Below are positions 1-48,137 of a stretch of 64,000 bases of DNA, in pieces. A program made the translations under genes and the position numbers. Source of the DNA: Tubulanus polymorphus. Taxonomy: Eukaryota; Nemertea; Palaeonemertea; Tubulaniformes; Tubulanidae. The stretch covers positions 13,518,155 through 13,582,154 of the forward strand of contig NC_134033.1 in NCBI RefSeq assembly GCF_964204645.1, in the 5' to 3' direction. The notes below the pieces were generated by a model. That model worked only from the letters and a program-made list of their open reading frames with translations. It made no database searches and was not told where the DNA came from. Position 1 is the stretch's first letter, and every line of letters starts with the position of its first letter.

Positions 1-3000
1 GTGATGTCGTCACGGTGCTCGCCGAGGTCGATGTGTCTACCGTAGTGGATGTGTCGGTCGAGGACGAAGTAGACGATTCCGTTGGTGATGTCGTCTCGGT
101 GCTCGCCGATGTTGATGTGTCCACCGTAGTTGAGCTGACGGTCGAGGACGAAGTAGACAAATCCGTTGTTGATGTCGTCTCGGTGCTCGCCGATGTCGAT
201 GTGTCTACCGTAGTGGAGCTGACAGTCGAGGATGAAGTCGACGAATCCGTTGGTGTTGTCGACTCGGTGCTCACCGAGGTCGATGTGTCTACCGTAGTTG
301 ATGTGTCAGTCGAGGATGAAGTAGACGAATCCGTTGGTGATGTCGTCTCGGTGCTCGCCGATGTCGATGTGTCTATCGTAGTGGAGCTGACAGTCGAGGA
401 TGAAGTAGACGAATCCGTTGGTGACGTCGTCTCGGTGCTCGACGAGGATGTGTCTACCGTAGTTGATGTGTCAGTCGAGGATGACGTAGACGAATCCGTT
501 GGTGATGTCGTCTCGGTGCTCGCCGATGTCGATGTGTCTATCGTAGTGGAGCTGACAGTCGAGGATGAAGTAGACGAATCCGTTGGTGATGTCGTCTCGG
601 TGCTCGCCAATGTCGATGTGTCTACCGTAGTGGAGCTGACAGTCGAGGATGTAGTCGACGAATCCGTTTGTGTTGTCGTCTTGGTGCTCACCGAGGTCGA
701 TGTGTCTACCGTAGGTGATGTGTCAGTCGAGGATGAAGTAGACGAATCCGTTGCCGATGTCGTCTCGGTGCTCGCCGAGGTCGATGTGTCTACCGTAGTG
801 GATGTGTCAGTTGAGGACGAAGTAGACGAATCTATTGGTGACGTCGTCTCGGTGCTCGACGAGGATGTGTCTACCGTAGTGGATGTGTCAGTTGAGGACG
901 AAGTAGTCGAATCCGTTGGTGATGTCGACTCGGTGCTCGACGAGGTCGATGTGTCTACCGTAGTGGATGTGTCAGTTGAGGACGAAGTAGTCGAATCCGT
1001 TGGTGATGTCGACTCGTTGCTCGACGAGGTAGATGTGTCTACCGTTGTTGAGCTGACAGTCGAGGATGAAATCGAGGAATCCGTTGGTGATGTCGTCTCG
1101 GTGCTCGCCGAGGTCGATGTGTCTACCGTAGAGCTGACAGACGAGGATGAAATAGACGAATCTGTTGCTGATGTCGACTCGGTGCTAGCCGATGTCGATG
1201 TGTCTATCGTGGTTGATGTGTCAGTTGAGGACGAAGTAGACGAATCCGTTAGTGATGTCGACTCGGTGCTCGACGAGGTCGATGTGTCTACTGTAGTGGA
1301 TGTGTCAGTTGAGGACGAAGTAGTCGAAACCGTTGGTGATGTCGTCTCGGTGCTCGACGAGGTAGATTTATCTACCGTAGTTGAGCTGACAGTCGAAGGA
1401 GAAGTAGATGAAATGGTTGGTGATGTCGTTTCGGTGCTAGCCGATGTCGATGTGTCTATCGTGGTTGATGTGTCAGTTGAGGACGAAGTAGACGAATCCG
1501 TTAGTGATGTCGACTCGGTGCTCGACGAGGTCGATGTGTCTACTGTAGTGGATGTGTCAGTTGAGGACGAAGTAGTCGAATCCGTTGGTGATGTCGACTC
1601 GGTGCTCGACGAGGTAGATGTGTCTACCGTTGTTGAGCTGACAGTCGAGGACGAAATAGACGAACCCGTTGGTGATGTCGTCTCGGTGCTCGCCGATGTT
1701 GATGTGTCCCTCGTAGTGGACGTGTCAGTCGAGGACGAAATAGACGAAACTGTTGTTGAGGTCGTATCTGTGCTCACCGGGGTCGATGTGTCTACCGTAG
1801 TAGAGCTGGCAGTCGTTGATGAAATAGACGAATCCGTTGCCGATGTCGTCTCGGTGCTCGCCGAGGTCGATGTGTCTACCGTAGTGGATGTGTCAGTCGT
1901 CGAGGACGAAGTCGACGAAACCGTTGGTGATGTCGTCTCGGTGCTCGACGAGGTAGATGTATCTACCGTAGTTGAGCTGACAGTCGAAGGAGAAGTAGAA
2001 GAATCCGTTGGTGATGTCGTCACGGTGCTCGCCGATGTTGATGTGTCCACCGTAGTGGAACTGACAGTCGAGGACGAAGTAGACGAATCCGTGGTCAAGG
2101 TCGTATCGGTGCTCGCCGATGTCGATGTCGTCATCGAAGAGGGGCTGGTAGTCGAGGACGATGTAGACGAATCTATTAGTGATGTCGTCACGGTGCTCGC
2201 CGAGGTCGATGTGTCTACCGTAGTGGATGTGTCGGTCGAGGACGAAGTAGACGATTCCGTTGGTGATGTCGTCTCTGTGCTCGCCGACGTCGATGTGTCT
2301 ACCGTAGAGCTGACAGTCGAGGATGAAATAGACGAATCCGTTGGTGATGTCGACTCGGCGCTCGACGAGGTAGATGTGTCTACCGTGGTTGATGTGTCAG
2401 TTGAGGACGAAGTAGACGAATCCGTTAGTGATGTCGACTCGGCGCTCGACGAGGTAGATGTGTCTACCGTAGTTGAGCTGATAGTCGAGGATGAAGTAGA
2501 CGAATCCATTGGTGATGTCGTCTCGGTGATCGCCGAGGTCGATGTGTCTACCGTTGTGGATGTGTCAGTTGAGGTCGCAGTAGACGAATCCGTTGTTAAG
2601 GTCCTATCGGTGCTCGCCAATGTCGATGTGGTCACCGACGTGGGACTGGTAGTCGAGGATGATGTTGACGAATACGTTGGTGATGTCGACGAGGTGCTCG
2701 ACAAGGTCGATGTGTCTACCGTTGTTGAGCTGACAGTCGTGGATGAAATAGACGAATCCGTTGCCGATGTCGTCTCGATGCTCGCCGAGGTCAAAGTGTC
2801 TATCGTAGTGGATGTGTCAGTTGAGGACGAAGTAGACGAATCCATTGGTGACGTCGTCTCGGTGCTCGACGAGGGTGTGTCTACCGTAGTGGATTTTTCA
2901 GTTGAGGACGAAGTAGTCGAATCCGTTGGTGATGTCGTCACGGTGCTCGACGAGGTAGATGTGTCTACCCAATTTGAGCTGACAGTCGAGGACGTAGTAG

Positions 3001-6000: not shown

Positions 6001-9000
6001 AGGTGTCAGTCGTGGACGAAGTAGACGAATCCGTTGGTGATGTCGTATCGGTGCTCGCCGAGGTCGATGTGTCTACCGTAGTGGAGGTGTCAGTCGAAGA
6101 TGAAGTCGACGAATCCGTTGGTGATGTCGTCTCGGTGCTCACCGATGTCGATGTGTCTACCGTAGTGGAGGTGTCAGTCGAGGACGAAGTAGACGAATCC
6201 GTTGGTGATGTCGTCACGGTGCTCGACGAGGTAGATGTGTCTACCGAAGTTGAGCTGACAGTCGAGGACGTAGTAGACAAATCCGTTCTTAAGGTCGTAT
6301 CGGTACTCACCGAGGTCGATGTGTCTACCGTAGTGGAGCTGACAGTCGAGATTGAAGTAGATGAATCCGTTGGTGATGTTGTATCGGTACTCGCCGAGGT
6401 CGATGTGTCTACCGTAGTGGAGCTGACAGTCGAGGATGAAGTAGACGAATCCGTTGTTGATGTCGTATCGGTACTCGCCGAGGACGATGTGTCTACCGTA
6501 GTTGATGTGTCAGTCGAGGATGAAGTAGACGAATCCGTTGCTGATGTCGTATCGGTACTCGCCGAGGTCGATGTGTCTACCGCAGTGGAGGTGTCAGTCG
6601 AAGACGAAATCGACGAATCCGTTGGTGATGTCGTCTCGGTGCTCACCGATGTCGATGTGTCTACCGTAGTGGAGCTGACAGTCGAGGATGACGTCGACGA
6701 ATCCGTTGGTGTTGTCGTCTCGGCGCTCACCGAGGTCGATGTGTCTATCGAAGTGGATGTGTCAGTCGAGGATGAAGTAGACGAATCCGTTGGTGATGTC
6801 GTATCGGTGCTCGCCGAGGTCGATGTGTCAACCGTAGTGGAGGTGTCAGTCGAAGATGAAGTCGACGAATCCGTTGGTGATGTCGTCTCGAAGCTCACCG
6901 ATGTCGATGTGTCTACCGTAGTGGAGGTGTCAGTCGAGGACGAAGTAGACGAATCCGTTGGTGATGTCGTCACGGTGCTCGACGAGGTAGATATGTCTAC
7001 CGAAGTTGAGCTGACAGTCGAGGACGTAGTAGACAAATCCGTTGTTAAGGTGGTATCGGTACTCGCCGAGGTCGATGTGTCTACCGTAGTGGAGCTGACA
7101 GTCGAGGATGAAGTCGACGAATCCGTTGGTGTTGTCGTCTCGGTGCTCACCGAGGTCGATGTGTCTATCGAAGTGGATGTGTAAGTCGAGGATGAAGTAG
7201 ACGAATCCGTTGGTGATGTCGTATCGGTGCTCGCCGAGGTCGATGTGTCAACCGTAGTGGAGGTGTCAGTCGAAGATGAAGTCGACGAATCCGTTGGTGA
7301 TGTCGTCTCGGTGCTGACCGATGTCGATGTGTCCACCGTAGTGGAGCTGACAGTCGAGGATGAAGTAGACGAATCCGTTGGTGATGTCGTATCGGTGCTC
7401 ACCGAGGTCGATGTGTCTACCGTAGTTGATGTGTCAGTCGAGGATGAAGTAGACGAATCCGTTGGTGATGTCGTATCGGTACTCGCCGAGGTCGATGTGT
7501 CTACCGTAGTGGAGCTGACAGTCGAGGATGAAGTCGATGAATCCTTCGGTGTTGTCGTCTCGGTGCTCACCGAGGTCGATGTGTCTACCGTAGTTGATGT
7601 GTCAGTCGAGGATGAAGTAGACGAATCCGTTGGTGATGTCGTCTCGGTGCTAGCCGATGTCGATGTGTCTACCGTAGTGGAGCTGACAGTGGAGGATGAA
7701 GTAGACGAATCCGTTGGTGATGTCGTCTCGATGCTCACCGATGTCGATGTGTCTACCGTAGTTGATGTGTCAGTCGAGGATGAAGTAGACGAATCCGTTG
7801 GTGATGTCGTCTCGGTGCTCACCGAGGTCGATGTGTCTATCGTAGTGGAGGGTTCAGTCGAGGACGAGGTAGACGAATCCGTTGTTAAGGTCGTATCGGT
7901 GCTCGCCGAGGTCGATGTGTCTACCGTAGTGGAGGTTTCAGTCGAGGACGAAGTAGACAAATCCGTTGATGAGGTCGTATCGGTACTCACCGAGGTCGAT
8001 GTGTCTACCGTAGTTGAGCTGACAGTCGAAGGAGAAGTAGATGAAATGGTTGGTGATGTCGTTTTGGTGCTAGCCGATGTCGATGTGTCTATCGTGGTTG
8101 ATGTGTCAGTTGAGGACGAAGTAGACGAATCCGTTAGTGATGTCGACTCGGTGCTCGACGAGGTCGATGTGTCTACTGTAGTGGATGTGTCAGTTGAGGA
8201 CGAAGTAGTCGAATCCGTTGGTGATGTCGACTCGGTGCTCGACGAGGTAGATGTGTCTACCGTTGTTGAGCTGACAGTCGAGGACGAAATAGACGAACCC
8301 GTTGGTGATGTCGTCTCGGTGCTCGCCGATGTTGATGTGTCCCTCGTAGTGGACGTGTCAGTCGAGGACGAAATAGACGAAACTGTTGTTGAGGTCGTAT
8401 CTGTGCTCACCGGGGTCGATGTGTCTACCGTAGTAGAGCTGGCAGTCGTGGATGAAATAGACGAATCCGTTGCCGATGTCGTCTCGGTGCTCGCCGAGGT
8501 CGATGTGTCTACCGTAGTGGATGTGTCAGTCGTCGAGGACGAAGTCGACGAAACCGTTGGTGATGTCGTCTCGGTGCTCGACGAGGTAGATGTATCTACC
8601 GTAGTTGAGCTGACAGTCGAAGGAGAAGTAGAAGAATCCGTTGGTGATGTCGTATCGGTGCTCGACGATATCGATGTGTCTACCGTAGTGGATGTGTCAG
8701 TTGCGGACGAAGTAGACGAATCCATTGGTGATGTCGTCACGGTGCTCGCCGATGTTGATATGTCCACCGTAGTGGAACTGGCAGTAGAGGACGAAGTTGA
8801 CGAATCAGTTGTTAAGGTCGTATCGCTACTCGCCAAGGTCGATATGTCCACCGTAGTGGATGTGTCAGTCGAGGACGAAATAGACGAATCCGTTGTTAAG
8901 GTCGTCTCTGTGCTCGCCGACGTCGATGTGTCTACCGTAGAGCTGACAGTCGAGGATGAAATAGACGAATCCGTTGGTGATGTTGTCTCGGTGCTCACCG

Positions 9001-18000: not shown

Positions 18001-21000
18001 TGACAGTCGAGGATGAAGTAGACGAATCCGTTGTTGATGTCGTATCGGTACTCGCCGAGGACGATGTGTCTACCGCAGTGGAGCTGACAGTCGGGGACGA
18101 AGTAGACGAATCCGTTGCTGATGTCGTCTCGATGCTCGACGATGTAGATGTGTCTACCGTAGTAGAGGTGTCAGTCGTGGACGAAGTAAACGAATCCGTT
18201 GGTGATGTCGTATTGGTGCTCGCCGAGGTCGATGTGTCTACCGTAGTGGAGGTGTCAGTCGAAGATGAAGTCGACGAATCCGTTGGTGATGTCGTCTCGG
18301 AGCTCACCGATGTCGATGTGTCTACCGTAGTTGATGTGACAGTCGAGGACGAAGTAGACGAATCCGTTGGTGTTGTCGTCTCGGTGCTCACCGAGGTCGA
18401 TATGTCTACCGTAGTGGATGTGTCAGTCGAGGATGAAGTAGACGAATCCGTTGGGGATGTCGTATCGGTACTCGCCGAGGTCGATGTGTCTACCGTAGTG
18501 GAGCTGACAGTCGAGGATGTAGTCGACGAATCCGTTGGTGATGTCGTATCGGTACTCGCCGAGGTCGATGTGTCTACCGTAGTGGAGCTGACAGTCGAGG
18601 ATGAAGTCGACGAATCCGTTGGTGTTGTCGTCTCGGTGCTCACCGATGTCGATGTGTCTACCGTAGTTGATGTGACAGTCGAGGACGAAGTAGACGAATC
18701 CGTTGGTGATGTCGTCTCGGTGCTCACCGAGGTCGATGTGTCTACCGTAGTGGAGGTATCAATCGAGGACGAAGTAGACGAATCCGTTGGTGTTGTCGTC
18801 TCGGTGCTCACCGTGGTCGATGTGTCTATCGTAGTTGATGTGTCAGTCGAGGATGAAGAAGACGAATCCGTTGGTGATGTCGTATCGGTGCTCGCCGATG
18901 TTGATGTGTCCACCGTAGTGGAGGTGTCAGTCGAGGACGAAGTAGACGAATCCGTTGGTGACGTCGTCTCTGTGCTCGCCGATGTTGATGTGTCCACCGT
19001 GGTGGAGGTGTCAGTCGAGGACGAAGTAAACGAATCCGTTGGTGATGTCGTATCGGTACTCGCCGAGGTCGATGTGTCTACCGTAGTTGAACTGACAGTC
19101 GAGGATGTAGTCGACGAATCCGTTGGTGATGTCGTATCGGTACTTCCCGAGGTCAATGTGTCTACCGTAGTGGAGCTGACAGTCGAGGATGAAGTCGACG
19201 AATCCGTTGGTGTTGTCGTCTCGGTGCTCACCGATGTCGATGTGTCTACCGTAGTTGATGTGACAGTCGCGGACGAAGTAGACGAATCCGTTGGTGATGT
19301 CGTCTCGGTGCTCGCCGATGTTGATGTGTCCACCGTGGTGGAGGTGTCAGTCGAGGACGAAGTAAACGAATCCGTTGGTGATGTCGTCTCGGTGCTCGCC
19401 GATGTTGATGTGTCCACCGTAGTTGAGCTGACAGTCGAGGACGAAGTAGACAAATCCGTTGGTGATGTCGTCTCGGTGCTCGCCGATGTCGATGTGTCTA
19501 CCGTAGTGGAGCTGACAGTCGAGGATGAAGTCGACGAATCCGTTGGTGTTGTCGACTCGGTGCTCACCGAGGTCGATGTGTCTACCGTAGTTGATGTGTC
19601 AGTCGAGGATGAAGTAGACGAATCCGTTGGTGATGTCGTCTCGGTGCTCGCCGATGTCGATGTGTCTATCGTAGTGGAGCTGACAGTCGAGGATGAAGTA
19701 GACGAATCCGTTGGTGATGTCGTCTCGCTGCTCGCCAATGTCGATGTGTCTACCGTAGTGGAGCTGACAGTCGAGGATGTAGTCGACGAATCTGTTTGTG
19801 TTGTCGTCTTGGTGCTCACCGAGGTCCATGTGTCTACCGTAGGTGATGTGTCAGTCGAGGATGAAGTAGACGAATCCGTTGCCGATGTCGTCTCGGTGCT
19901 CGCCGAGGTCGATGTGTCTACCGTAGTGGATGTGTCAGTCGTCGAGGACGAAGTCGACGAAACCGTTGGTGATGTCGTCTCGGTGCTCGACGAGGTAGAT
20001 GTATCTACCGTAGTTGAGCTGACAGTCGAAGGAGAAGTAGAAGAATCCGTTGGTGATGTCGTATCGGTGCTCGACGATATCGATGTGTCTACCGTAGTGG
20101 ATGTGTCAGTTGAGGACGGAGTAGACGAATCCATTGGTGATGTCGTCACGGTGCTCGCCGATGTTGATGTGTCCACCGTAGTGAAACTGGCAGTCGAGGA
20201 CGAAGTTGACGAATCAGTTGTTAAGGTCGTATCGGTACTCGCCAAGTTCGATATGTCCACCGTAGTGGATGTGTCAGTCGAGGATGAAGTAGACGAATCC
20301 GTTGGTGATGTCGTCTCGGTGCTCGCCGATGTTGATGTGTCCACCGTAGTGGAGGTGTCAGTCGAGGACGAAGTAGACGAATCCGTTGGTGATATCGTCT
20401 CGGTGCTCGACGAGGTCGATGTGTCTACCGTAGTTGAGCTGACAGTCGAGGACGAAGTTGACAAATCCGTTGTTGAGGTCGTATCGGTACTCACCGAGGT
20501 CGATGTGTCTACCGTAGTGGAGCTGACAGTCGAGGATGAAGTAGACGAATCCGTTGGTGATGTCGTATCGGTACTCGCCGAGGTCGATGTGTCTACCGTA
20601 GTGGAGCTGACAGTCGAGGATGAAGTAGACGAATCCGTTGTTGATGTCGTATCGGTACTCGCCGAGGACGATGTGTCTACCGCAGTGGAGCTGACAGTCG
20701 GGGACGAAGTAGACGAATCCGTTGCTGATGTCGTCTCGATGCTCGACGATGTAGATGTGTCTACCGTAGTAGAGGTGTCAGTCGTGGACGAAGTAAACGA
20801 ATCCGTTGGTGATGTCGTATCGGTGCTCGCCGAGGTCGATGTGTCTACCGTAGTGGAGGTGTCAGTCGAAGATGAAGTCGACGAATCCGTTGGTGATGTC
20901 GTCTCGGTGCTCACCGATGTCGATGTGTCTACCGTAGTTGATGTGACAGTCGAGGACGAAGTAGACGAATCCGTTGGTGTTGTCGTCTCGGTGCTCACCG

Positions 21001-24000
21001 AGGTCGATGTGTCTACCGTAGTGGATGTGTCAGTCGAGGATGAAGTAGACGAATCCGTTGGGGATGTCGTATCGGTACTCGCCGAGGTCGATGTGTCTAC
21101 CGTAGTGGAGCTGACAGTCGAGGATGTAGTCGACGAATCCGTTGGTGATGTCGTATCGGTACTCGCCGAGGTCGATGTGTCTACCGTAGTGGAGCTGACA
21201 GTCGAGGATGAAGTCGACGAATCCGTTGGTGTTGTCGTCTCGGTGCTCACCGATGTCGATGTGTCTACCGTAGTTGATGTGACAGTCGAGGACGAAGTAG
21301 ACGAATCCGTTGGTGATGTCGTCTCGGTGCTCACCGAGGTCGATGTGTCTACCGTAGTGGAGGTATCAATCGAGGACGAAGTAGACGAATCCGTTGGTGT
21401 TGTCGTCTCGGTGCTCGCCGATGTTGATGTGTCCACCGTAGTGGAGGTGTCAGTCGAGGATGAAGTAGACGAATCCGTTGGTGATGTCGTCTCTGTGCTC
21501 GCCGATGTTGATGTGTCCACCGTGGTGGAGGTGTCAGTCGAGGACGAAGTAAACGAATCCGTTGGTGATGTCGTATCGTTACTCGCCGAGGTCGATGTGT
21601 CTACCGTAGTTGAACTGACAGTCGAGGATGTAGTCGACGAATCCGTTGGTGATGTCGTATCGGTACTTCCCGAGGTCGATGTGTCTACCGTAGTGGAGCT
21701 GACAGTCGAGGATGAAGTCGACGAATCCGTTGGTGTTGTCGTCTCGGTGCTCACCGATGTCGATGTGTCTACCGTAGTTGATGTGACAGTCGCGGACGAA
21801 GTAGACGAATCCGTTGGTGATGTCGTCTCGGTGCTCGCCGATGTTGATGTGTCCACCGTGGTGGAGGTGTCAGTCGAGGACGAAGTAAACGAATCCGTTG
21901 GTGATGTCGTCTCGGTGCTCGCCGATGTTGATGTGTCCACCGTAGTTGAGCTGACAGTCGAGGACGAAGTAGACAAATCCGTTGGTGATGTCGTCTCGGT
22001 GCTCGCCGATGTCGATGTGTCTACCGTAGTGGAGCTGACAGTCGAGGATGAAGTCGACGAATCCGTTGGTGTTGTCGACTCGGTGCTCACCGAGGTCGAT
22101 GTGTCTACCGTAGTTGATGTGTCAGTCGAGGATGAAGTAGACGAATCCGTTGGTGATGTCGTCTCGGTGCTCGCCGATGTCGATGTGTCTATCGTAGTGG
22201 AGCTGACAGTCGAGGATGTAGTCGACGAATCCGTTTGTGTTGTCGTCTTGGTGCTCACCGAGGTCCATGTGTCTACCGTAGGTGATGTGTCAGTCGAGGA
22301 TGAAGTAGACGAATCCGTTGCCGATGTCGTCTCGGTGCTCGCCGAGGTCGATGTGTCTACCGTAGTGGATGTGTCAGTCGTCGAGGACGAAGTCGACGAA
22401 ACCGTTGGTGATGTCGTCTCGGTGCTCGACGAGGTAGATGTATCTACCGTAGTTGAGCTGACAGTCGAAGGAGAAGTAGATGAAATGGTTGGTGATGTCG
22501 TTTCGGTGCTCGCCGTGGTAGATGTGTCTATCGTAGTTGAGCTGACATTCGAAGGAGAAGTAGACGAATCCGTTGGTGATGTCGTATCGGTGCTCGACGA
22601 TATCGATGTGTCTACCGTAGTGGATGTGTCAGTTGAGGACGAAGTAGACGAATCCATTGGTGATGTCGTCACGGTGCTCGCCGATGTTGATGTGTCCACC
22701 GTAGTGAAACTGGCAGTCGAGGACGAAGTTGACGAATCAGTTGTTAAGGTCGTATCGGTACTCGCCAAGTTCGATATGTCCACCGTAGTGGATGTGTCAG
22801 TCGAGGATGAAGTAGACGAATCTTTTGTGTAGGTCGTATCGGTGCTCGCCGATGTCGACGTTGTCACCGAAGTGGGGCTGGTAGTCGAGGAAGACGACGA
22901 CGAATCCGTTGGTGAGATTGCCTCGGTACTCGCCGCAGTGGATGAATCAACTGTAGTGGAACTGAGAGTCGAGGATGACGTAGACGAATCCGTTGGTGAG
23001 GTCACCTCGGTAGTCGCCGATGTGGAAGTATCAACTGTAGTGGAACTGAGAGTCGAGGATGACGTAGATGAATCCGTTGGTGAGGTCACCTTGGTAGTCA
23101 CCGATGTGGAAGTATCAACTGTACTAGAGCTCAGAGTCGAGGACGACGAAGACGAATCCGTTGGTGATGTCGTCACGGTGCTCGCCGATGTTGATGTGTC
23201 CACCGTAGTGGAACTGACAGTCGAGGACGAAGTAGACGAATCCGTGGTCAAGGTCGTATCGGTGCTCGCCGATGTCGATGTCGTCATCGAAGAGGGGCTG
23301 GTAGTCGAGGACGATGTAGACGAATCTATTGGTGATGTCGTCACGGTGCTCGCCGAGGTCGATGTGTCTACCGTAGTGGATGTGTCAGTCGAGGACGAAG
23401 TAGACGATTCCGTTGGTGATGTCGTATCTGTGCTCACCGAGGTCGATGTGTCTACCGTAGTAGAGCTGACATTCGTGGATGAAATAGACGAATCCGTTGC
23501 CGATGTCGTCTCGGTGCTCGCCGAGGTCGATGTGTCTACCGTAGTGGATGTGTCAGTCGTCGAGGACGAAGTCGACGAAACCGTTGGTGATGTCGTCTCG
23601 GTGCTCGACGAGGTAGATGTATCTACCGTAGTTGAGCTGACAGTCGAAGGAGAAGTAGAAGAATCCGTTGGTGATGTCGTCACGGTGCTCACCGTGGTCG
23701 ATGTGTCTATCGTAGTTGATGTGTCAGTCGAGGATGAAGTAGACGAGCTGACAGTCGAAGGAGAAGTAGATGAAATGGTTGGTGATGTCGTTTCGGTGCT
23801 CGCCGTGGTAGATGTGTCTATCGTGGTTGATGTGTCAGTTGAGGACGAAGTAGACGAATCCGTTAGTGATGTCGACTCGTTGCTCGACGAGGTAGATGTG
23901 TCTACCGTTGTTGAGCTGACAGTCGAGGATGGAATAGGGGAATCCGTTGGTGATGTCGTCTCGGTGCTCGCCGAGGTCGATGTGTCTACCGTAGAGCTGA

Positions 24001-26806
24001 CAGACGAGAATGAAATAGACGAATCTGTTGCTGATGTCGACTCGGTGCTAGCCGATGTCGATGTGTCTATCGTGGTTGATGTGTTAGTTGAGGACGAAGT
24101 AGACGAATCCGTTAGTGATGTCGACTCGGTGCTCGACGAGGTCGATGTGTCTACCGTAGTTGATTTGTCAGTTGAGGATGAAGTAGACGAATCCGTTGGT
24201 GATGTCGTCTCGGTGCTCGCCGATGTCGATGTGTCTACCGTAGAGGCGCTGACAGTCGAGGATGAAGTAGACGAATCCGTTGGTGATGTCGACTCGGTGC
24301 TCGACGAGGTAGATGTGTCTACCGTTGTTGAGCTGACAGTCGAGGACGAAATAGACGAATCCGTTGGTGATATCGTCTCGGTGCTCGCCGATGTTGATGT
24401 GTCACTCGTAGTGGACGTTTCAGTCGAGGACGAAATAGACGAAACAGTTGTTGAGGTCGTATCTGTGCTCACCGGGGTCGATGTGTCTACCGTAGTAGAG
24501 CTGACAGTCGTGGATGAAATAGACGAATCCGTTGCCGATGTCGTCTCGGTGCTCGCCGAGGTCGATGTGTCTACCGTAGTGGATGTGTCAGTCGTCGAGG
24601 ACGAAGTCGACGAAACCGTTGGTGATGTCGTCTCGGTGCTCGACGAGGTAGATGTATCTACCGTAGTTGAGCTGACAGTCGAAGGAGAAGTAGATGAAAT
24701 GGTTGGTGATGTCGTTTCGGTGCTCGTCGTGGTAGATGTATCTACCGTAGTTGAGCTGACATTCGAAGGAGAAGTAGAAGAATCCGTTGGTGATGTCGTA
24801 TCGGTGCTCGACGATATCGATGTGTCTACCGTAGTGGATGTGTCAGTTGAGGACGAAGTAGACGAATCCATTGGTGATGTCGTCACGGTGCTCGCCGATG
24901 TTGATGTGTCCACCGTAGTGGTACTGGCAGTCGAGGACGAAGTTGACGAATCAGTTGTTAAGGTCGTATCGGTGCTCGCCGATGTCGATGTCGTCATCGA
25001 AGAGGGGCTGGTAGTCGAGGACGATGTAGACGAATCTATTGGTGATGTCGTCACGGTGCTCGCCGAGGTCGATGTGTCTACCGTAGTGGATGTGTCAGTC
25101 GAGGACGAAGTAGACGATTCCGTTGGTGATGTCGTCTCTGTGCTCGCCGACGTCGATGTGTCTACCGTAGAGCTGACAGTCGAGGATGAAATAGACGAAT
25201 CCGTTGGTGATGTCGCCTCGGTGCTCACCGTGGTAGATGTTTTTATCGTAGTTGAGCTGACAGTCGAAGGAGAAATAGACGAAACCGTTGGTGATGTCGT
25301 CAGGGTGCTCGCCAATGTTGATGTGTCCATCGTAGCTGATGTGTCAGTCGACGATGAAGTAGACGAATCTTTTGTGTAGGTCGTATCGGTGCTCGCCGAT
25401 ATCGATGTGGTCACCGAAGTGGGGCTGGTAGTCGAGGAAGACGACGACGAATCCGTTGGTGATGTCGTCTCGGTGCTTTCCGAGGTCGATGTGTCTACCG
25501 TTGTGGATGTGTCAGTTGAGGTCGAAGTAGACGAATCCGCTGTTAAGGTCGTATCGGTGCTCGCCAATGTCGATGTGGTCACCGACGTGGGACTGGTAGT
25601 CGAGGATGATGTTGACGAATACGTTGGTGATGTCGACGAGGTGCTCGACGAGGTCGATGTGTCTACCGTTGTTGAGCTGACAGTCGTGGATGAAATAGAC
25701 GAATCCGTTGCCGATGTCGTCTCGGTGCTCGCCGAGGTCAAAGTGTCTATCGTAGTGGATGTGTCAGTTGAGGACGAAGTAGTCGAATCCGTTGGTGATG
25801 TCGTCACGGTGCTCGCCGATGTTGATGTGTCCACCGTAGTGGAACTGGCAGTCGAGGACGAAGTTGACGAATCAGTTGTTAAGGTCGTATCGGTACTCGC
25901 CAAGGTCGATATGTCCACCGTAGTGGAGGTGTCAGTCGAGGACGAAGTAGACGAATCCGTTGTTGAGGTCGTCTCTGTGCTCGCCGACGTCGATGTGTCT
26001 ACCGTAGAGCTGACAGTCGAGGACGAAATAGACGAATCCGTTGGTGATGTTGTCTCGGTGCTCACCGTGGTAGATGTTTCTATCGTAGTTGAGCTGACAG
26101 TCGATGGAGAAGTAGACGAATCCGTTGGTGATGTCGTCACGGTGCTCGCCAATGTTGATGTGTCCATCGTAGCTGATGTGTCAGTCGAGGATGAAGTAGA
26201 CGAATCTTTTGTGTAGGTCGTATCGGTGCTCGCCGATGTCGACGTGGTCACCGAAGTGGGGCTGGTAGTCGAGGAAGACGACGACGAATCCGTTGGTGAG
26301 ATTGCCTCGCTACTCGCCGCAGTGGATGAATCAACTGTAGTGGAACTGAGAGTCGAGGATGACGTAGACAAATCCGTTGGTGAGGTCACCTCGGTAGTCG
26401 CCGATGTGGAAGTATCAACTGTAGTGGAACTGAGAGTCGAGGATGACGTAGACGAATCCGTTGGTGATGTCACCTCGGTACTAGCCGAAGTGGAAGTATC
26501 AACTGAAGTGGAGCTGAGAATCGAGGATGATGTAGACGAATCCGTTGATGTAATCTCCTTTGTACTCGCCGAGGTTGATATGTCTGTAGAGCTGACAGTT
26601 GAGGGTGACGAATCCGTTTTTGAAGTCGTCTCGGAGTTCACCGAAGTTGATGATTTTACCGTTGAGGAGCTGACAGATGTGGATATATCAGTCGTGGATT
26701 CGTTTAACATTTGCACTCTGGATGCGTTCAGGCAGCATGCTATCCATATCACTAGCAATGTCACACTTAAGTTCTTATTGGTTTTTACGTAGTTATTCAT
26801 ACCCAT
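1..26806 (-). CDS. Giant secreted mucin-like Ser/Thr repeat protein (5' part; 3' end outside window)
   Basis: The - strand frame whose codons occupy + positions 2-4, 5-7 and so on has no stop from 26860 down to the left edge, giving 8,935 codons from the ATG at 26806-26804. That ATG has A at -3 and G at +4; the preceding in-frame stop is at 26863-26861. A second in-frame ATG lies two codons later. The N-terminus carries a signal peptide with hydrophobic core LSVTLLVIWIACCLNA, then a sequon (NES), then Ser/Thr-rich sequence. The body is 28-residue repeats with 21 Ser/Thr each, one Pro (core TETTSPTDSSTSSST) and a closing VDTSTS; units alternate between VSSTT and DTSTT centres. Such density is typical of mucin O-glycosylation domains. 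No cysteine-rich or membrane domain is seen; these may lie beyond the left edge. The first repeats after the signal peptide are the most diverged. No intron is visible. Confidence 0.85.
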   Translation of the reverse strand, partial: MGMNNYVKTNKNLSVTLLVIWIACCLNASRVQMLNESTTDISTSVSSSTVKSSTSVNSETTSKTDSSPSTVSSTDISTSASTKEITSTDSSTSSSILSSTSVDTSTSASTEVTSPTDSSTSSSTLSSTTVDTSTSATTEVTSPTDLSTSSSTLSSTTVDSSTAASSEAISPTDSSSSSSTTSPTSVTTSTSASTDTTYTKDSSTSSSTDTSATMDTSTLASTVTTSPTDSSTSPSTVSSTTIETSTTVSTETTSPTDSSISSSTVSSTVDTSTSASTETTSTTDSSTSSSTDTSTTVDISTLASTDTTLTTDSSTSSSTASSTTVDTSTSASTVTTSPTDSTTSSSTDTSTTIDTLTSASTETTSATDSSISSTTVSSTTVDTSTSSSTSSTSPTYSSTSSSTTSPTSVTTSTLASTDTTLTADSSTSTSTDTSTTVDTSTSESTETTSPTDSSSSSSTTSPTSVTTSISASTDTTYTKDSSTSSSTDTSATMDTSTLASTLTTSPTVSSISPSTVSSTTIKTSTTVSTEATSPTDSSISSSTVSSTVDTSTSASTETTSPTESSTSSSTDTSTTVDTSTSASTVTTSPIDSSTSSSTTSPSSMTTSTSASTDTTLTTDSSTSSSTASTTTVDTSTSASTVTTSPMDSSTSSSTDTSTTVDTSISSSTDTTSPTDSSTSPSNVSSTTVDTSTTTSTETTSPTISSTSPSTVSSTTVDTSTSSSTETTSPTVSSTSSSTTDTSTTVDTSTSASTETTSATDSSISSTTVSSTTVDTSTPVSTDTTSTTVSSISSSTETSTTSDTSTSASTETISPTDSSISSSTVSSTTVDTSTSSSTESTSPTDSSTSSSTVSASTVDTSTSASTETTSPTDSSTSSSTDKSTTVDTSTSSSTESTSLTDSSTSSSTNTSTTIDTSTSASTESTSATDSSISFSSVSSTVDTSTSASTETTSPTDSPIPSSTVSSTTVDTSTSSSNESTSLTDSSTSSSTDTSTTIDTSTTASTETTSPTISSTSPSTVSSSTSSSTDTSTTIDTSTTVSTVTTSPTDSSTSPSTVSSTTVDTSTSSSTETTSPTVSSTSSSTTDTSTTVDTSTSASTETTSATDSSISSTNVSSTTVDTSTSVSTDTTSPTESSTSSSTDTSTTVDTSTSASTVTTSPIDSSTSSSTTSPSSMTTSTSASTDTTLTTDSSTSSSTVSSTTVDTSTSASTVTTSPTDSSSSSSTLSSSTVDTSTSVTTKVTSPTDSSTSSSTLSSTTVDTSTSATTEVTSPTDSSTSSSTLSSTTVDSSTAASTEAISPTDSSSSSSTTSPTSVTTSTSASTDTTYTKDSSTSSSTDTSTTVDISNLASTDTTLTTDSSTSSSTASFTTVDTSTSASTVTTSPMDSSTSSSTDTSTTVDTSISSSTDTTSPTDSSTSPSNVSSTTIDTSTTASTETTSPTISSTSPSTVSSTTVDTSTSSSTETTSPTVSSTSSSTTDTSTTVDTSTSASTETTSATDSSTSSSTDTSPTVDTWTSVSTKTTTQTDSSTTSSTVSSTTIDTSTSASTETTSPTDSSTSSSTDTSTTVDTSTSVSTESTTPTDSSTSSSTVSSTTVDTSTSASTETTSPTDLSTSSSTVSSTTVDTSTSASTETTSPTDSFTSSSTDTSTTVDTSTSASTETTSPTDSSTSSATVTSTTVDTSTSVSTETTTPTDSSTSSSTVSSTTVDTSTSGSTDTTSPTDSSTTSSTVSSTTVDTSTSASNDTTSPTDSFTSSSTDTSTTVDTSTSASTETTSPTDSSTSSSTDTSTTVDTSTSASTETTTPTDSSTSSSIDTSTTVDTSTSVSTETTSPTDSSTSSSTVTSTTVDTSTSVSTETTTPTDSSTSSSTVSSTTVDTSTSASTDTTSPTDSSTTSSTVSSTTVDTSTSASTDTTSPTDSSTSSSTDTSTTVDTSTSVSTETTTPTDSSTSSSTVTSTTVDTSTSVSTETTSPTDSSTSSSTDTSTTVDTSTSASTDTTSPTDSFTSSTTDTSTTVDTSTSSSIETTSATDSSTSSPTVSSTAVDTSSSASTDTTSTTDSSTSSSTVSSTTVDTSTSASTDTTSPTDSSTSSSTVSSTTVDTSTSVSTDTTSTTDLSTSSSTVSSTTVDTSTSSSTETISPTDSSTSSSTDTSTTVDTSTSASTETTSPTDSSTSSSTDTSTTVDISNLASTDTTLTTDSSTSSSTASFTTVDTSTSASTVTTSPMDSSTPSSTDTSTTVDTSISSSTDTTSPTDSSTSPSTVSSTTVDTSTSSSTETTSPTVSSTSSSTTDTSTTVDTSTSASTETTSATDSSTSSSTDTSPTVDTWTSVSTKTTTQTDSSTTSSTVSSTTVDTSTLASSETTSPTDSSTSSSTVSSTTIDTSTSASTETTSPTDSSTSSSTDTSTTVDTSTSVSTESTTPTDSSTSSSTVSSTTVDTSTSASTETTSPTDLSTSSSTVSSTTVDTSTSASTETTSPTDSFTSSSTDTSTTVDTSTSASTETTSPTDSSTSSATVTSTTVDTSTSVSTETTTPTDSSTSSSTVSSTTVDTLTSGSTDTTSPTDSSTTSSTVSSTTVDTSTSASTDTTSPTDSFTSSSTDTSTTVDTSTSASTETTSPTDSSTSSSTDTSTTVDTSTSASTDTTSPTDSSSSSSTDTSTTIDTSTTVSTETTTPTDSSTSSSIDTSTTVDTSTSVSTETTSPTDSSTSSSTVTSTTVDTSTSVSTETTTPTDSSTSSSTVSSTTVDTSTSASTDTTSPTDSSTTSSTVSSTTVDTSTSASTDTTSPTDSSTSSSTDTSTTVDISTSVSTETTTPTDSSTSSSTVTSTTVDTSTSVSSETTSPTDSSTSSSTDTSTTVDTSTSASTNTTSPTDSFTSSTTDTSTTVDTSTSSSIETTSATDSSTSSPTVSSTAVDTSSSASTDTTSTTDSSTSSSTVSSTTVDTSTSASTDTTSPTDSSTSSSTVSSTTVDTSTSVSTDTTSTTDLSTSSSTVSSTTVDTSTSSSTETISPTDSSTSSSTDTSTTVDTSTSASTETTSPTDSSTSSSTDTFTTVDTSTSVSTDTTSSTDLSTLSSTVSSTTVDTSTSSSTETTSPTDSSTSSSTETSTTVDKSTSTSTETTSPTDSSTSSSTDTSTTVDTSTSVSTDTTSSTDLSTLSSTVSSTTVDTSTSSSTETTSPTDSSTSSSTETSTTVDKSTSTSTETTSPTDSSTSSSTDTSTTVDTSTSASTDTTLTTDSSTSSSTDTSTTIDTSTSVSTDMTSPTDSSTSSSTDTSTTVDTSTSASIETTSPTDSSTSSSTDTSTTVDTSTSASTVTTSPTDSSTSSSTVSSTTVDTSTSASTDTTSPTDSSISSSTVSSTKVDTSTSASTETTSPTDSSTSSSTVSSTTVDTSTSASTDTTSPTDSSTSSSTDTSTTVDTSTSVSTDTTSPTDSSTSSSTVSSTTVDTSTSVSTETTSPTDSSTSSSTDTSTTVDTSTSASTDTTSPTDSSTSSSTYTSTSIDTSTSLSTETTTPTDSSTSSSTVSSTTVDTSTSASTDTTLTTDLSTTSSTVSSTSVDISTSSSTVTTSPTDSSTSSSTDTSTTVDTSTSVSTETTSPTDSSTSSSTDTSTTVDISSSASTDTTSPTDSSTSSTTDTSNTVDTSTSSSIETTSATDSSTSSPTVSSTAVDTSSSASTDTTSPTDSSTSSSTDTSTTIDTSTSVSTETTKPTDSSTSSSTVSSTTVDTSTSASTDTTLTTDLSTSSSTVSSTSVDTSTSSSTVTTSPTDTSTSSSSDTSTTVDTSTSVSTETTSPTDSSTSSTTDTTTTVDTSTSSSIETTSATDSSTSSPTVSSTAVDTSSSASTDTTSPTDSSTSSSTDTSTTVDTSTSVSTDTTSPTDSSTASSTVSSTTVDTASSASTDTTSPTDSSTSSSTDTSTTIDTSTSVSTETTTPTDSSTSSSTVSSTTVDTSTSASTVTTLTTDLSTTSSTFSSTSVDTSTSSSTVTTSPTDSSTSSSTDTSTTVDTSTSVSTETTSPTDSSTSSSTDTSTTVDTSSSASTDTTSTTDSSTSSSTVSSTTVDTSTSASTDTTSLTDSSTSISTVSSTTVDTSTSVSTDTTLTTDLSTTSSTVSSTSVDTSTSSSTVTTSPTDSSTSSSTDTSTTVDTSTSVSTETTSPTDSSTSSSTDTSTTVDTSTSASTDTTSPTDSSTSSTTDTSTTVDTSTSSSIETTSATDSSTSSPTVSSTAVDTSSSASTDTTSTTDSSTSSSTDTSTTVDTSTSASSDTTSPTDSSTSSSTVSSTTVDTSTSVSTDTTSTTDLSTSSSTVSSTTVDTSTSSSTETISPTDSSTSSSTDTSTTVDTSTSASTETTSPTDSSTSSSTDTFTTVDTSTSVSTDTTSSTDLSTSSSTVSSTTVDTSTSSSTETTSPTDSSTSSSTETSTTVDKSTSTSTDTTSPTDSSTSSTTDTSTTVDTSTSVSTETTSPTDSSTSSSTVSSTTVDTSTSVSTETTSPTDSSTSSSTDTSTTVDTSTSASTDTTLTTDLSTTSSTVSSTSVDISTSSSTVTTSPTDSTTSSSTEKSTTVDTPSSSTETTSPMDSSTSSSTDISTTIDTLTSASTETTSATDSSISSTTVSSTTVDTSTLSSTSSTSPTYSSTSSSTTSPTSVTTSTLASTDRTLTTDSSTSTSTDTSTTVDTSTSAITETTSPMDSSTSSSTISSTTVDTSTSSSAESTSLTDSSTSSSTDTSTTIDTSTSASTESTSATDSSISSSSVSSTVDTSTSASTETTSPTDSSISSSTVSSTTVDTSTSSSNESTSPTDSTTSSSTDTSTTVDTSTSSSTESTSPTDSTTSSSTDTSTTVDTSSSSTETTSPIDSSTSSSTDTSTTIDTLTSASSETTSATDSSISSTTVSSTTVDTSTSSSTESKSPTYSSTSSSTTSPTSVTTSTLASTDTTLTTDSSTSSSTDTSTTVDTSTSASTVTTSPTDSSTSPSTVSSTMIETSTTVSTEATSPTDSSISSSTVSSTVDTSTSASTETTSPTESSTSSSTDTSTTVDTSTSASTVTTSLIDSSTSSSTTSPSSMTTSTSASTDTTLTTDSSTSSSTVSSTTVDTSTSASTVTTSPTDSSTSPSTVSSTTVDTSTSSSTETTSPTVSSTSSSTTDTSTTVDTSTSASTETTSATDSSISSTTASSTTVDTSTPVSTDTTSTTVSSISSSTDTSTTRDTSTSASTETTSPTGSSILSSTVSSTTVDTSTSSSTESTSPTDSTTSSSTDTSTTVDTSTSSSTESTSLTDSSTSSSTDISTTIDTSTSASTETTSPTISSTSPSTLSSTTVDKSTSSSTETTSPTVSTTSSSTDTSTTVDTSTSSSTESTSLTDSSTSSSTDTSTTIDTSTSASTESTSATDSSISSSSVSSTVDTSTSASTETTSPTDSSISSSTVSSTTVDTSTSSSNESTSPTDSTTSSSTDTSTTVDTSTSSSTESTSPTDSTTSSSTDTSTTVDTSSSSTETTSPIDSSTSSSTDTSTTVDTSTSASTETTSATDSSTSSSTDTSPTVDTSTSVSTKTTTQTDSSTTSSTVSSTTVDTSTLASTETTSPTDSSTSSSTVSSTTIDTSTSASTETTSPTDSSTSSSTDTSTTVDTSTSVSTESTTPTDSSTSSSTVSSTTVDTSTSASTETTSTTDLSTSSSTVSSTTVDTSTSASTETTSPTESSTSSSTDTSTTVDTSTSASTVTTSLIDSSTSSSTTSPSSMTTSTSASTDTTLTTDSSTSSSTVSSTTVDTSTSASTVTTSPTDSSSSSSTLSSSTVDTSTSATTEVTSPTDSSTSSSTLSSTTVDSSTAASTEDISPTDSSSSSSTTSPTSVTTSTSASTDTTNTKDSSTSSSTDTSTTVNTSTLASTVTTSPTDSSTSFSTDTSTTVDTSTLASTVTISPTDSSTSPSTVSSTTIETSTTVSTETTSPTDSSISSSTVSSTVDTSTSASTETTLTTDSSISSSTDTSTTVDISTLASSDTTLTTDSSTSSSTASSTTVDISTSASTVTTSPMDSSTSSATDTSTTVDTSISSSTDTTSPTDSSTSPSTVSSTTVDTSTSSSTETTSPTVSSTSSSTTDTSTTVDTSTSASTETTSATDSSISSTTASSTTVDTSTPVSTDTTSTTVSSISSSTDTSTTRDTSTSASTETTSPTGSSISSSTVSSTTVDTSTSSSTESTSPTDSTTSSSTDTSTTVDTSTSSSTESTSLTDSSTSSSTDTSTTIDTSTSASTKTTSPTISSTSPSTVSSTTVDTSTSVSTDTTSSTDLSTSSSTETSTTVDTSTSASTDTTLTTDSSTSSSTEPSTTIDTSTSVSTETTSPTDSSTSSSTDTSTTVDTSTSVSIETTSPTDSSTSSSTVSSTTVDTSTSASTETTSPTDSSTSSSTDTSTTVDTSTSVSTETTTPKDSSTSSSTVSSTTVDTSTSASTDTTSPTDSSTSSSTDTSTTVDTSTSVSTDTTSPTDSSTSSSTVSSTTVDTSTSVSTETTSPTDSSTSSSTDTSTTVDTSTSASTDTTSPTDSSTSSSTYTSTSIDTSTSVSTETTTPTDSSTSSSTVSSTTVDTSTSASTDTTLTTDLSTTSSTVSSTSVDISTSSSTVTTSPTDSSTSSSTDTSTTVDTSTSVSFETTSPTDSSTSSSTDTSTTVDTSTSASTDTTSPTDSSTSSSTDTSTSIDTSTSVSAETTTPTDSSTSSSTVSSTTVDTSTSVSTETTSPTDSSISSSTDTSTAVDTSTSASTDTTSATDSSTSSSTDTSTTVDTSSSASTDTTSTTDSSTSSSTVSSTTVDTSTSASTDTTSPTDSSTSISTVSSTTVDTSTSVSTDTTLRTDLSTTSSTVSSTSVDTSTSSSTVTTSPTDSSTSSSTDTSTTVDTSTSVSTETTSPTDSSTSSSTDTSTTVDTSTSASTDTTSPTDSSTSSTTDTSTTVDTSTSSSIETTSATDSSTSSPTVSSTAVDTSSSASTDTTSTTDSSTSSSTDTSTTVDTSTSASTDTTSPTDSSTSSSTVSSTTVDTSTSVSTDTTSTTDLSTSSSTVSSTTVDTSTSSSTETISPTDSSTSSSTDTSTTVDTSTSASTETTSPTDSSTSSSTDTFTTVDTSTSVSTVTTSSTDLSTSSSTVSSTTVDTSTSSSTETTSPTDSSTSSSTETSTTVDKSTSTSTETTSPTDSSTSSSTDTSTTVDTSTSASTDTTSPTDSSTSSTTDTSTTVDTSTSSSIETTSATDSSTSSPTVSSTAVDTSSSASTDTTSTTDSSTSSSTDTSTTVDTSTSASTDTTSPTDSFTSSPTVSSTTVDTSSSASTDTTSPTDSSTSSSTDTSTTVDTSTSVSTETTTPKDSSTSSSTVSSTTVDTSTSASTDTTSPTDSSTSSSTDTSTTVDTSTSVSTDTTSPTDSSTSSSTVSSTTVDTSTSVSTETTSPTDSSTSSSTDTSTTVDTSTSASTDTTSTTDLSTSSSTVSSTTVDTSTSSSTETISPTDSSTSSSTDTSTTVDTSTSASTETTSPTDSSTSSSTDTFTTVDTSTSVSTVTTSSTDLSTSSSTVSSTTVDTSTSSSTETTSPTDSSTSSSTETSTTVDKSTSTSTETTSPTDSSTSSSTDTSTTVDTSTSASTDTTSPTDSSTSSTTDTSTTVDTSTSSSIETTSATDSSTSSPTVSSTAVDTSSSASSDTTSTTDSSTSSSTDTSTTVDTSTSASTDTTSPTDSFTSSPTVSSTAVDTSSSASTDTTSPTDSSTSSSTDTSTTVDTSTSVSTETTTPKDSSTSSSTVSSTTVDTSTSASTDTTSPTDSSTSSSTDTSTTVDTSTSVSTDTTSPTDSSTSSSTVSSTTVDTSTSVSTETTSPTDSSTSSSTDTSTTVDTSTSASTDTTSPTDSSTSSSTDTSTSIDTSTSVSTETTTPTDSSTSSSTVSSTTVDTSTSASTDTTLTTDLSTTSSTVSSNWVDTSTSSSTVTTSPTDSTTSSSTEKSTTVDTPSSSTETTSPMDSSTSSSTDTSTTIDTLTSASIETTSATDSSISSTTVSSTTVDTSTLSSTSSTSPTYSSTSSSTTSPTSVTTSTLASTDRTLTTDSSTATSTDTSTTVDTSTSAITETTSPMDSSTSSSTISSTTVDTSTSSSAESTSLTDSSTSSSTDTSTTVDTSTSSSAESTSPTDSSISSSTVSSTVDTSTSASTETTSPTESSTSSSTDTSTTVDTSTSASTVTTSLIDSSTSSSTTSPSSMTTSTSASTDTTLTTDSSTSSSTVSSTTVDTSTSASTVTTSPTDSSTSPSTVSSTTVDTSTSSSTETTSPTVSSTSSSTTDTSTTVDTSTSASTETTSATDSSISSTTASSTTVDTSTPVSTDTTSTTVSSISSSTDTSTTRDTSTSASTETTSPTGSSISSSTVSSTTVDTSTSSSTESTSPTDSTTSSSTDTSTTVDTSTSSSTESTSLTDSSTSSSTDTSTTIDTSTSASTETTSPTISSTSPSTVSSTTVDKSTSSSTETTSPTVSTTSSSTDTSTTVDTSTSSSTESTSLTDSSTSSSTDTSTTIDTSTSASTESTSATDSSISSSSVSSTVDTSTSASTETTSPTDSSISSSTVSSTTVDTSTSSSNESTSPTDSTTSSSTDTSTTVDTSTSSSTESTSPTDSTTSSSTDTSTTVDTSSSSTETTSPIDSSTSSSTDTSTTVDTSTSASTETTSATDSSTSSSTDTSPTVDTSTSVSTKTTTQTDSSTTSSTVSSTTVDTSTLASTETTSPTDSSTSSSTVSSTTIDTSTSASTETTSPTDSSTSSSTDTSTTVDTSSSSTETTSPTDSSTSSSTVSSTTIDTSTSASTETTSPTDSSTSSSTDTSTTVDTSTSVSTESTTPTDSSTSSSTVSSTTVDTSTSASTETTSTTDLSTSSSTVSSTTVDTSTSASTETTSPTESSTSSSTDTSTTVDTSTSASTVTTS
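3184..5703. repeat. Recent 1,260-bp (15-unit) higher-order tandem duplication
   Basis: The block at about 3184-4443 is repeated at 4444-5703 with an exact offset of 1,260 bp. Line-by-line comparison shows only a handful of substitutions, for example at the CGCAGTGG/CGTAGTGG, CGGAACTC/CGGTACTC and CCGTCGG/CCGTTGG positions. A further partial copy, about 5881-6125, matches 5041-5285 at an offset of 840 bp (10 units). This is the signature of recent unequal exchange within the mucin array. Confidence 0.9.
17690..22820. repeat. Tandem duplication of a ~2.5-2.6 kb segment inside the array
   Basis: About 17690-20300 and 20300-22820 carry the same ordered series of unit variants. The offset is 2,607 bp early in the block and 2,523 bp later, because one 84-bp unit (near 18810-18890) is present only in the left copy. 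The left copy has two more units near its right end. Block borders are approximate because neighbouring units are so similar. Confidence 0.75.
26738..26806 (-). other. Signal peptide of the mucin-like protein
   Basis: Reading leftward from 26806, a short polar/basic stretch (NNYVKTNKN) is followed by the hydrophobic core SVTLLVIWIACCL and a plausible cleavage region around LNA/SR. The unique, non-repetitive sequence here ends the repeat array exactly where a secreted protein should begin. The same bases read on the + strand give a meaningless tail to the antisense frame. Confidence 0.8.
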
Positions 26807-30800: not shown

Positions 30801-30999
30801 AATTGTGTCCGACCCCAACGACTGACTTTTGTGTCTAAATATCGAGTCAAAAATGAAAAAACAGGTTTCGTCTCAATTGTAGCTAGTTTGGCATCCAATC
30901 TACCACACGCCCTCACCGCGCTACGTCTAGTCACTCGGCTTCTTGAAACGTAGTAACACTGTCTACCAAAGCGAATGAAATTGCTTTTACATGGTCGGG
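27858..30999 (-). other. C-terminal triplet of C-type lectin domains (exons 17-22)
   Basis: CTLD4 is encoded by 30793-30999 and 30391-30639, CTLD5 by 29785-30060 and 29383-29568, and CTLD6 by 28540-28800 and 27858-28051. CTLD4 has GEPNHYDE and WGWND. CTLD6 has GEPNNYDG and WGFND. CTLD5 lacks both motifs and matches CTLD2 in HLVAINS and EWWxGGE and the TIP end of its first exon. The protein ends 14 residues after the last CTLD cysteine-containing FVC segment, with only a short polar tail. All introns in this half are phase 1. Confidence 0.88.

Positions 31000-43785: not shown

Positions 43786-48137
<4,352 letters not shown>

Follow-up and report, generated by a model that had tools for sequence, protein, structure and literature searches.

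The minus strand of the window carries most of one of two adjacent genes predicted to encode enormous Ser/Thr-rich cell-surface proteins. The window is the whole stretch of 64,000 nucleotides analysed here, C9:13518155-13582154, on one of the 77 contigs of an assembly of 267.8 Mb. As judged from sequence, it is highly probable (about 0.93) that this gene, gene A, and gene B, which lies next to it in tandem, both code for giant membrane-tethered mucins of type I.

Reading frames over the arrays

On the minus strand, a stop-free frame of 8,953 codons was found at window positions 2-26860, and from the ATG at 26806, in the context ACACAATGG, 8,935 codons run without a stop up to the window edge. 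When followed past the window, the frame ended at C9:13506336 (12,893 codons from stop to stop), and the exon counted from the ATG has 12,874 codons. An earlier note, made from the letters of the window, had claimed this open frame and a Kozak-context ATG; the observation was confirmed, the frame extending well beyond the window. A second array lies to the left of gene A; its minus strand has a frame without stops over 23,262 codons (C9:13428656-13498441), named gene B, of which 23,258 codons run from its ATG. No sense stop was found in the 36,132 codons of the two first exons. The features of the array within the window are as follows.

1..26806, minus strand: in-window part of gene A exon 1 (ATG, signal peptide, mucin repeats); the exon extends 11,817 bases further left
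26723..26806, minus strand: predicted signal peptide of gene A, residues 1-28, core VTLLVIWIACCL, from hydropathy and the -3,-1 rule only
1..26547, minus strand: gene A array in the window, 84-bp (28-codon) Ser/Thr-rich tandem repeats with higher-order repeats
3-7181, 7185-16322, 16326-22829 and 22833-25376, plus strand: Val/Asp/Glu open frames, read as a spurious antisense by-product

When stops were counted in all frames of exon 1, the three minus frames of gene A had 0, 610 and 290 and its plus frames 1096, 900 and 10, the corresponding numbers in gene B being 0, 1204 and 552 on the minus strand and 1892, 1600 and 9 on the plus strand. The strands were also compared through 593 inferred parent-child pairs of repeat units, taken from 628 distinct units, 35 of which were dropped as having no accepted parent. 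In single-change codons, 0 sense stops were found against 33.8 expected, and 5 antisense stops against 28.6 expected under a random-position model. Codons with several changes were dropped, since the lone use of one of two changes had given 4 sense 'stops' present in no unit; 1,139 of 1,225 changes were kept in the sense frame and 1,138 in the antisense frame.

That the conspicuous Val/Asp/Glu frame of the plus strand represents a real protein is given practically no credence. Its open stretches are long, reaching 11,150 codons in the gene B array, and its stops in the unit pairs fall below the random-position expectation. However, when the order of the sense codons was shuffled 200 times, antisense stops averaged 9.7 in gene A and 10.9 in gene B, basically the 10 and 9 that were seen, and every one of these stops sits opposite a Tyr codon. 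With shared third positions, an antisense stop requires a sense codon for Tyr, His or Gln, and such codons, starting with TA or CA, number only 26 of 12,874 in gene A and 30 of 23,258 in gene B, thus explaining the long plus frame. Since the stop counts equal the shuffled-codon expectation, this frame needs no biology and no selection on the plus strand. In the window it is interrupted within the array by five stops (7182, 16323, 22830, 25377 and 26214), and the sixth stop (26790), which ends it, falls within the sequence complementary to the signal peptide, as the earlier note had described in calling the frame spurious. A search covering open frames saw no plus-strand gene structure over the arrays either.

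Synonymous and non-synonymous measures gave 0.546 for the sense and 0.594 for the antisense strand and so failed to tell the two apart, and third positions that are two-fold or four-fold in the sense frame (four-fold in antisense) had equal transversion rates; such measures do not discriminate here because the third positions coincide. As a rule for annotation, a Ser/Thr/Asp/Val-rich repeat nearly without Tyr, His and Gln carries a long stop-free antisense frame, so that frame length alone can pick the wrong strand. Plus-strand frames resembling the Val/Asp/Glu one were detected at related loci on contigs C4 (1,515 codons) and C9 (1,242 codons), where the composition rule would predict them.

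Gene models and repeat arrays

Downstream of each array, outside the window, lie seven small exons that can be joined in frame through GT-AG introns. Splice sites were picked by eye, guided by the consensus and by keeping the frame open; least certain is the intron that precedes exon 8. The sites gave the following models, all on the minus strand of C9.

13506338-13544960: gene A exon 1 (38,623 bp)
13506135-13506256: gene A exon 2
13505976-13506037: gene A exon 3
13505712-13505902: gene A exon 4
13505433-13505628: gene A exon 5
13505119-13505292: gene A exon 6
13504925-13505039: gene A exon 7
13504527-13504754: gene A exon 8
13428658-13498432: gene B exon 1
13428455-13428576: gene B exon 2
13428305-13428366: gene B exon 3
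13428041-13428231: gene B exon 4
13427762-13427957: gene B exon 5
13427434-13427607: gene B exon 6
13427240-13427354: gene B exon 7
13426842-13427069: gene B exon 8

The predicted products have 13,236 residues and 1.30 MDa before sugars (gene A) and 23,620 residues and 2.31 MDa (gene B, with a single repeat exon of 69,775 bp). A protein above 8,900 residues, as had been proposed, was thus borne out at the level of prediction, and the proposal of a single huge exon held for the repeats, which occupy one exon of 38.6 kb, but not for the gene, of which this is exon 1 of a predicted eight.

The signal peptides at the start of the two frames are similar, and the sequences at their ends are almost the same. 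Exons 2-8 of the two genes show 10 differences in 1,088 sites (0.9%) and the introns 38 in 714 aligned sites (5.3%; Fisher P 2.9e-8 for exons against introns), whereas in the 1 kb upstream 235 of 891 aligned sites differ. As the 3' ends are far closer than the 5' flank, gene conversion may contribute to the likeness of the exons. The residues of exons 2-8 are identical at 356 of 362 positions, and the codon changes comprise 6 non-synonymous and 4 synonymous ones, too few for the conservation of the exons to be clearly ascribed to selection on amino acids.

The consensus unit, DSSTSSSTDTSTTVDTSTSASTETTSPT, has 28 residues, 21 of them Ser or Thr as the earlier note had stated, and the first exon holds about 460 repeat lengths in gene A and about 830 in gene B, together about 1,290 without a frame break. 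Once units with more than 26 mismatches to the consensus were excluded, 1,243 remained, covering 104,412 of the 108,398 exon bases. A frame-blind search recovered 426 units in gene A and 817 in gene B, and every one starts in the minus reading frame. Their spacing departs from 84 in 49 cases (39 of the 425 spacings in A and 10 of the 816 in B), each of them a multiple of 3.

A non-coding satellite with long frames by chance would also show tandem and higher-order repeats, and many of the recognised units are matched by an identical one elsewhere in their own gene (246 of 426 in A, 609 of 817 in B). Against it stand the absence of sense stops, both along the first exons and in the unit pairs, the irregular spacings that all preserve frame and the conserved, spliceable 3' exons, and this explanation is therefore considered very improbable.

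Gene B is the more uniform, with an amino-acid identity at lag 28 of 0.82 compared to 0.70 in gene A, and in both arrays stretches that are 97.5% or more alike are met again at several lags, the largest about 10.2 kb in B and about 9.5 kb in A, most of the recurrence being at these lags. The uniformity of B, the identical twins and the long-lag recurrences fit an expansion of the arrays by unequal exchange, later in B. The same recurrent stretches might have misled the assembly, and both array lengths come from a single one; that these sizes are artefacts, the genes being much shorter or longer, is nevertheless judged rather unlikely in view of a frame that stays unbroken throughout both arrays.

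Predicted proteins, related loci and neighbours

The predicted product of gene A consists of a signal peptide, 28-residue repeats (73% Ser+Thr), a SEA-like domain, an EGF-like Cys module, a transmembrane helix and a tail, a domain order that supports a membrane-tethered mucin. By hydropathy, the N-terminus has a hydrophobic core with putative cleavage at LNA|S, which conforms to the -3,-1 rule for signal-peptide cleavage, so the signal peptide claimed for the unique flank is supported. Hydropathy also gave one 21-residue transmembrane candidate near the C-terminus (3.13, compared to a maximum of 0.61 in the repeats), so that signal peptide, single transmembrane helix and cytoplasmic tail are all present in the prediction. 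The tails of both proteins are Ser-rich and end in EQV, which we take to be a class III PDZ-type end.

Ser and Thr make up 9,351 of the 12,874 residues of exon 1 in gene A and 17,040 of 23,258 in gene B. Acidic residues number 1,469 (A) and 2,886 (B), basic ones 57 and 54, and Cys 2 and 1. A PTS domain is recognised by more than 40% Ser+Thr with about 5% proline, the latter as given in PMC9080433. The Ser+Thr level is exceeded in all 100-residue windows (638/638 in A, 1,157/1,157 in B), but proline reaches about 3% overall and at least 5% in just 40 of the 638 such windows of A and 32 of the 1,157 of B; because they miss this usual mark, both proteins are filed as membrane mucins with a proline exception. 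The mucin composition proposed for the minus strand was supported. The marks of a gel-forming mucin were looked for and not found: Pfam detected neither VWD nor cystine-knot domains in the C-terminal 368 residues of gene A, and exon 1 encodes the few Cys given above. For the Cys module of gene A, every Pfam match to an EGF-type model stayed under the cut-off, the best having E 0.0012, and a PDB search with its SEA-EGF part returned only weak EGF-type matches (best E 1.5).

The SEA-like domain of both proteins contains LSNGSVIYQYIVEY, with a G-S-V motif. Pfam reported no SEA domain in gene A up to E = 10, and a genome search with PF01390 gave 12 matches, 3 of them flagged above cut-off and none in A or B. 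In a paralogue of the same repeat family at C9:2.527 Mb, Pfam SEA scored 27.4 bits against a cut-off of 26.4 when two exons were combined with X between them; no SEA was found by Pfam in its SEA-like half read alone or in a second C9 piece, a C7 SEA-like piece scored 14.4 bits, below the cut-off, and a PDB search with the SEA domain of the C9 paralogue found nothing. A five-sequence SEA model, from an alignment partly misaligned by MAFFT, scored 14.7 bits in A and 14.4 in B, the best of 500 shuffles reaching 6.8. Alignment of an A/B/C7 profile, with two of its three rows used, to a six-sequence SEA profile by hhalign gave a probability of 94 and an E of 1.5e-7 for this single comparison, with G-S-V aligned; against MUC1 alone, the probability was 0.2 and only 16 columns matched, around GSV. 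The domain is probably self-cleaving at Gly-Ser.

In the proposed model, the signal peptide would route the chain into the secretory pathway, and O-glycosylation of the repeats would produce a stiff, acidic rod. The SEA-like domain would cleave itself, its halves staying joined non-covalently, and together with the EGF-like module would connect the rod to the transmembrane helix and the tail. If expressed, both proteins would most likely build a very tall glycocalyx on an epithelium, with a putative barrier role.

A gene A product that is real but secreted or shed, as a mucin or an adhesive slime protein whose anchor is removed by processing or splicing, is regarded as unlikely, though it carries some weight. 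The G-S-V motif would permit shedding, and the membrane segment and tail are on separate small exons; yet these parts are nearly identical in A and B, which argues against such a loss of the anchor.

Further loci with the same or other Ser/Thr repeats were found at C4:0.6 Mb, C9:2.52 Mb and C7:4.22 Mb. The C9 locus (2.519-2.539 Mb) is mucin-like: its Ser/Thr repeat exons carry two kinds of repeat, and three or more SEA-type copies that resemble one another lie between them. In the C7 paralogue, SEA-like, Cys and transmembrane parts, judged by eye, come after a repeat exon that spans at least 1,234 codons. The genome that carries genes A and B has several SEA-mucin-like loci. Other SEA-type exons with G-S-[IV] motifs occur at C8:8.87-8.88 Mb and C2:29.0 Mb, and other Thr/Ser/Pro repeats adjoin one of the C8 exons and the C2 exon.

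The remainder of the window gave the following features.

27861..28115, minus strand: last exon of the next gene upstream from gene A, judged by eye to be C-type-lectin-like and unmatched in Pfam
28472-28843, 29771-30241, 35014-35358 and 35844-36107, minus strand: Lectin_C exons, above the Pfam cut-off
37277-37591, minus strand: Lectin_C exon, barely above the Pfam cut-off
31664-31918, minus strand: FN3, sub-threshold in Pfam
32655-32900, minus strand: Ig-type exon, among the lectin exons
33569-33955 and 34374-34745, minus strand: two kringle domains, among the lectin exons
46543-47097, plus strand: exon of PIG-U, a GPI transamidase subunit (Pfam E 1.3e-32)
57340-57612, plus strand: F-box exon (Pfam F-box-like E 1.2e-9)

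Pfam found no Lectin_C in the minus-strand pieces 27861-28115 and 30770-31024. From the selected pieces searched, window positions 27861-37591 appear to hold at least one modular gene for an extracellular protein, on the same strand as gene A and upstream of it. The lectin-like exon before gene A has a related piece upstream of gene B as well (C9:13499107-13499488), so the duplication unit extended past the 5' end of the mucin.

A (TA)58 run (window 46391-46506) adjoins the PIG-U exon. To the left of gene B, TRF detected a 44-bp tandem repeat of about 34 copies with 96% match (C9:13417661-13419147), and a (TTAGGG)n run, read as CCCTAA, lies within the first 400 bases of C9. On contig C6, ten Hox-type homeoboxes form one cluster on the same strand over 316 kb; the six of the ten whose sequences were examined include what we take to be Lox5-, Lox4-, Lox2- and Post2-like sequences, and these homeodomains point to a lophotrochozoan, perhaps an annelid. 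A search of the assembly for COX1 gave no match. The Capitella Hox genes are described in a 10-of-11 arrangement, with published spans that differ from this cluster (PMC2603591).

Comparison with known mucins

Mucins are described as having PTS regions with VWD or SEA domains, and until chicken Muc13 was reported, all those known had the PTS region in a single large exon (PMC1552070). We tentatively propose that the first coding exon of gene B, at 69.8 kb, is the longest protein-coding exon described in any animal, and its 23,620-residue product the longest mucin, an acidic, proline-poor rod that would serve to reach an extreme height; neither these genes nor any longer animal exon turned up among the matches listed in open-access literature, searched by titles and abstract openings.

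The closest known system is human MUC3A/MUC3B, a tandem pair with PTS exons of 15,873 and 39,267 bp followed by SEA, transmembrane and tail parts (PMC9578598). As in that account, genes A and B are paralogues arranged in tandem whose ends are closely alike, and each has a single, very long repeat exon that differs in length between the two, that of gene B being 1.8 times the MUC3B exon. In contrast to MUC3A/MUC3B as described there, the signal peptide and all repeats lie within the first coding exon, the repeat has 28 residues and is Asp-rich and Pro-poor compared to one of 17 residues, and the tails end in EQV rather than in a class I PDZ-type end (PMC9578598).

MUC16, called the largest mucin at 22,152 residues (PMC11101557), is likewise a type I membrane mucin of a length similar to the 23,620 predicted for gene B, but is described with 16 SEA modules, whereas A and B have one SEA-like domain and an EGF-like module. 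The C9:2.52 Mb paralogue, with its several SEA copies, is more MUC16-like than either. MUC1, although far shorter, has a SEA domain with the same G-S-V motif, and its solved chains are split between that G and S. Among invertebrates, the mucin1-like proteins of sea anemones are membrane mucins that share the layout of A and B, with signal peptide, PTS-rich regions, SEA and transmembrane parts, and the passages describing them do not mention a giant single repeat exon (PMC9080433). As predicted, A and B would work like known membrane mucins, A at the size of MUC3B and B larger; if they are expressed, membrane mucins of MUC3/MUC16 scale, and larger, exist outside vertebrates.
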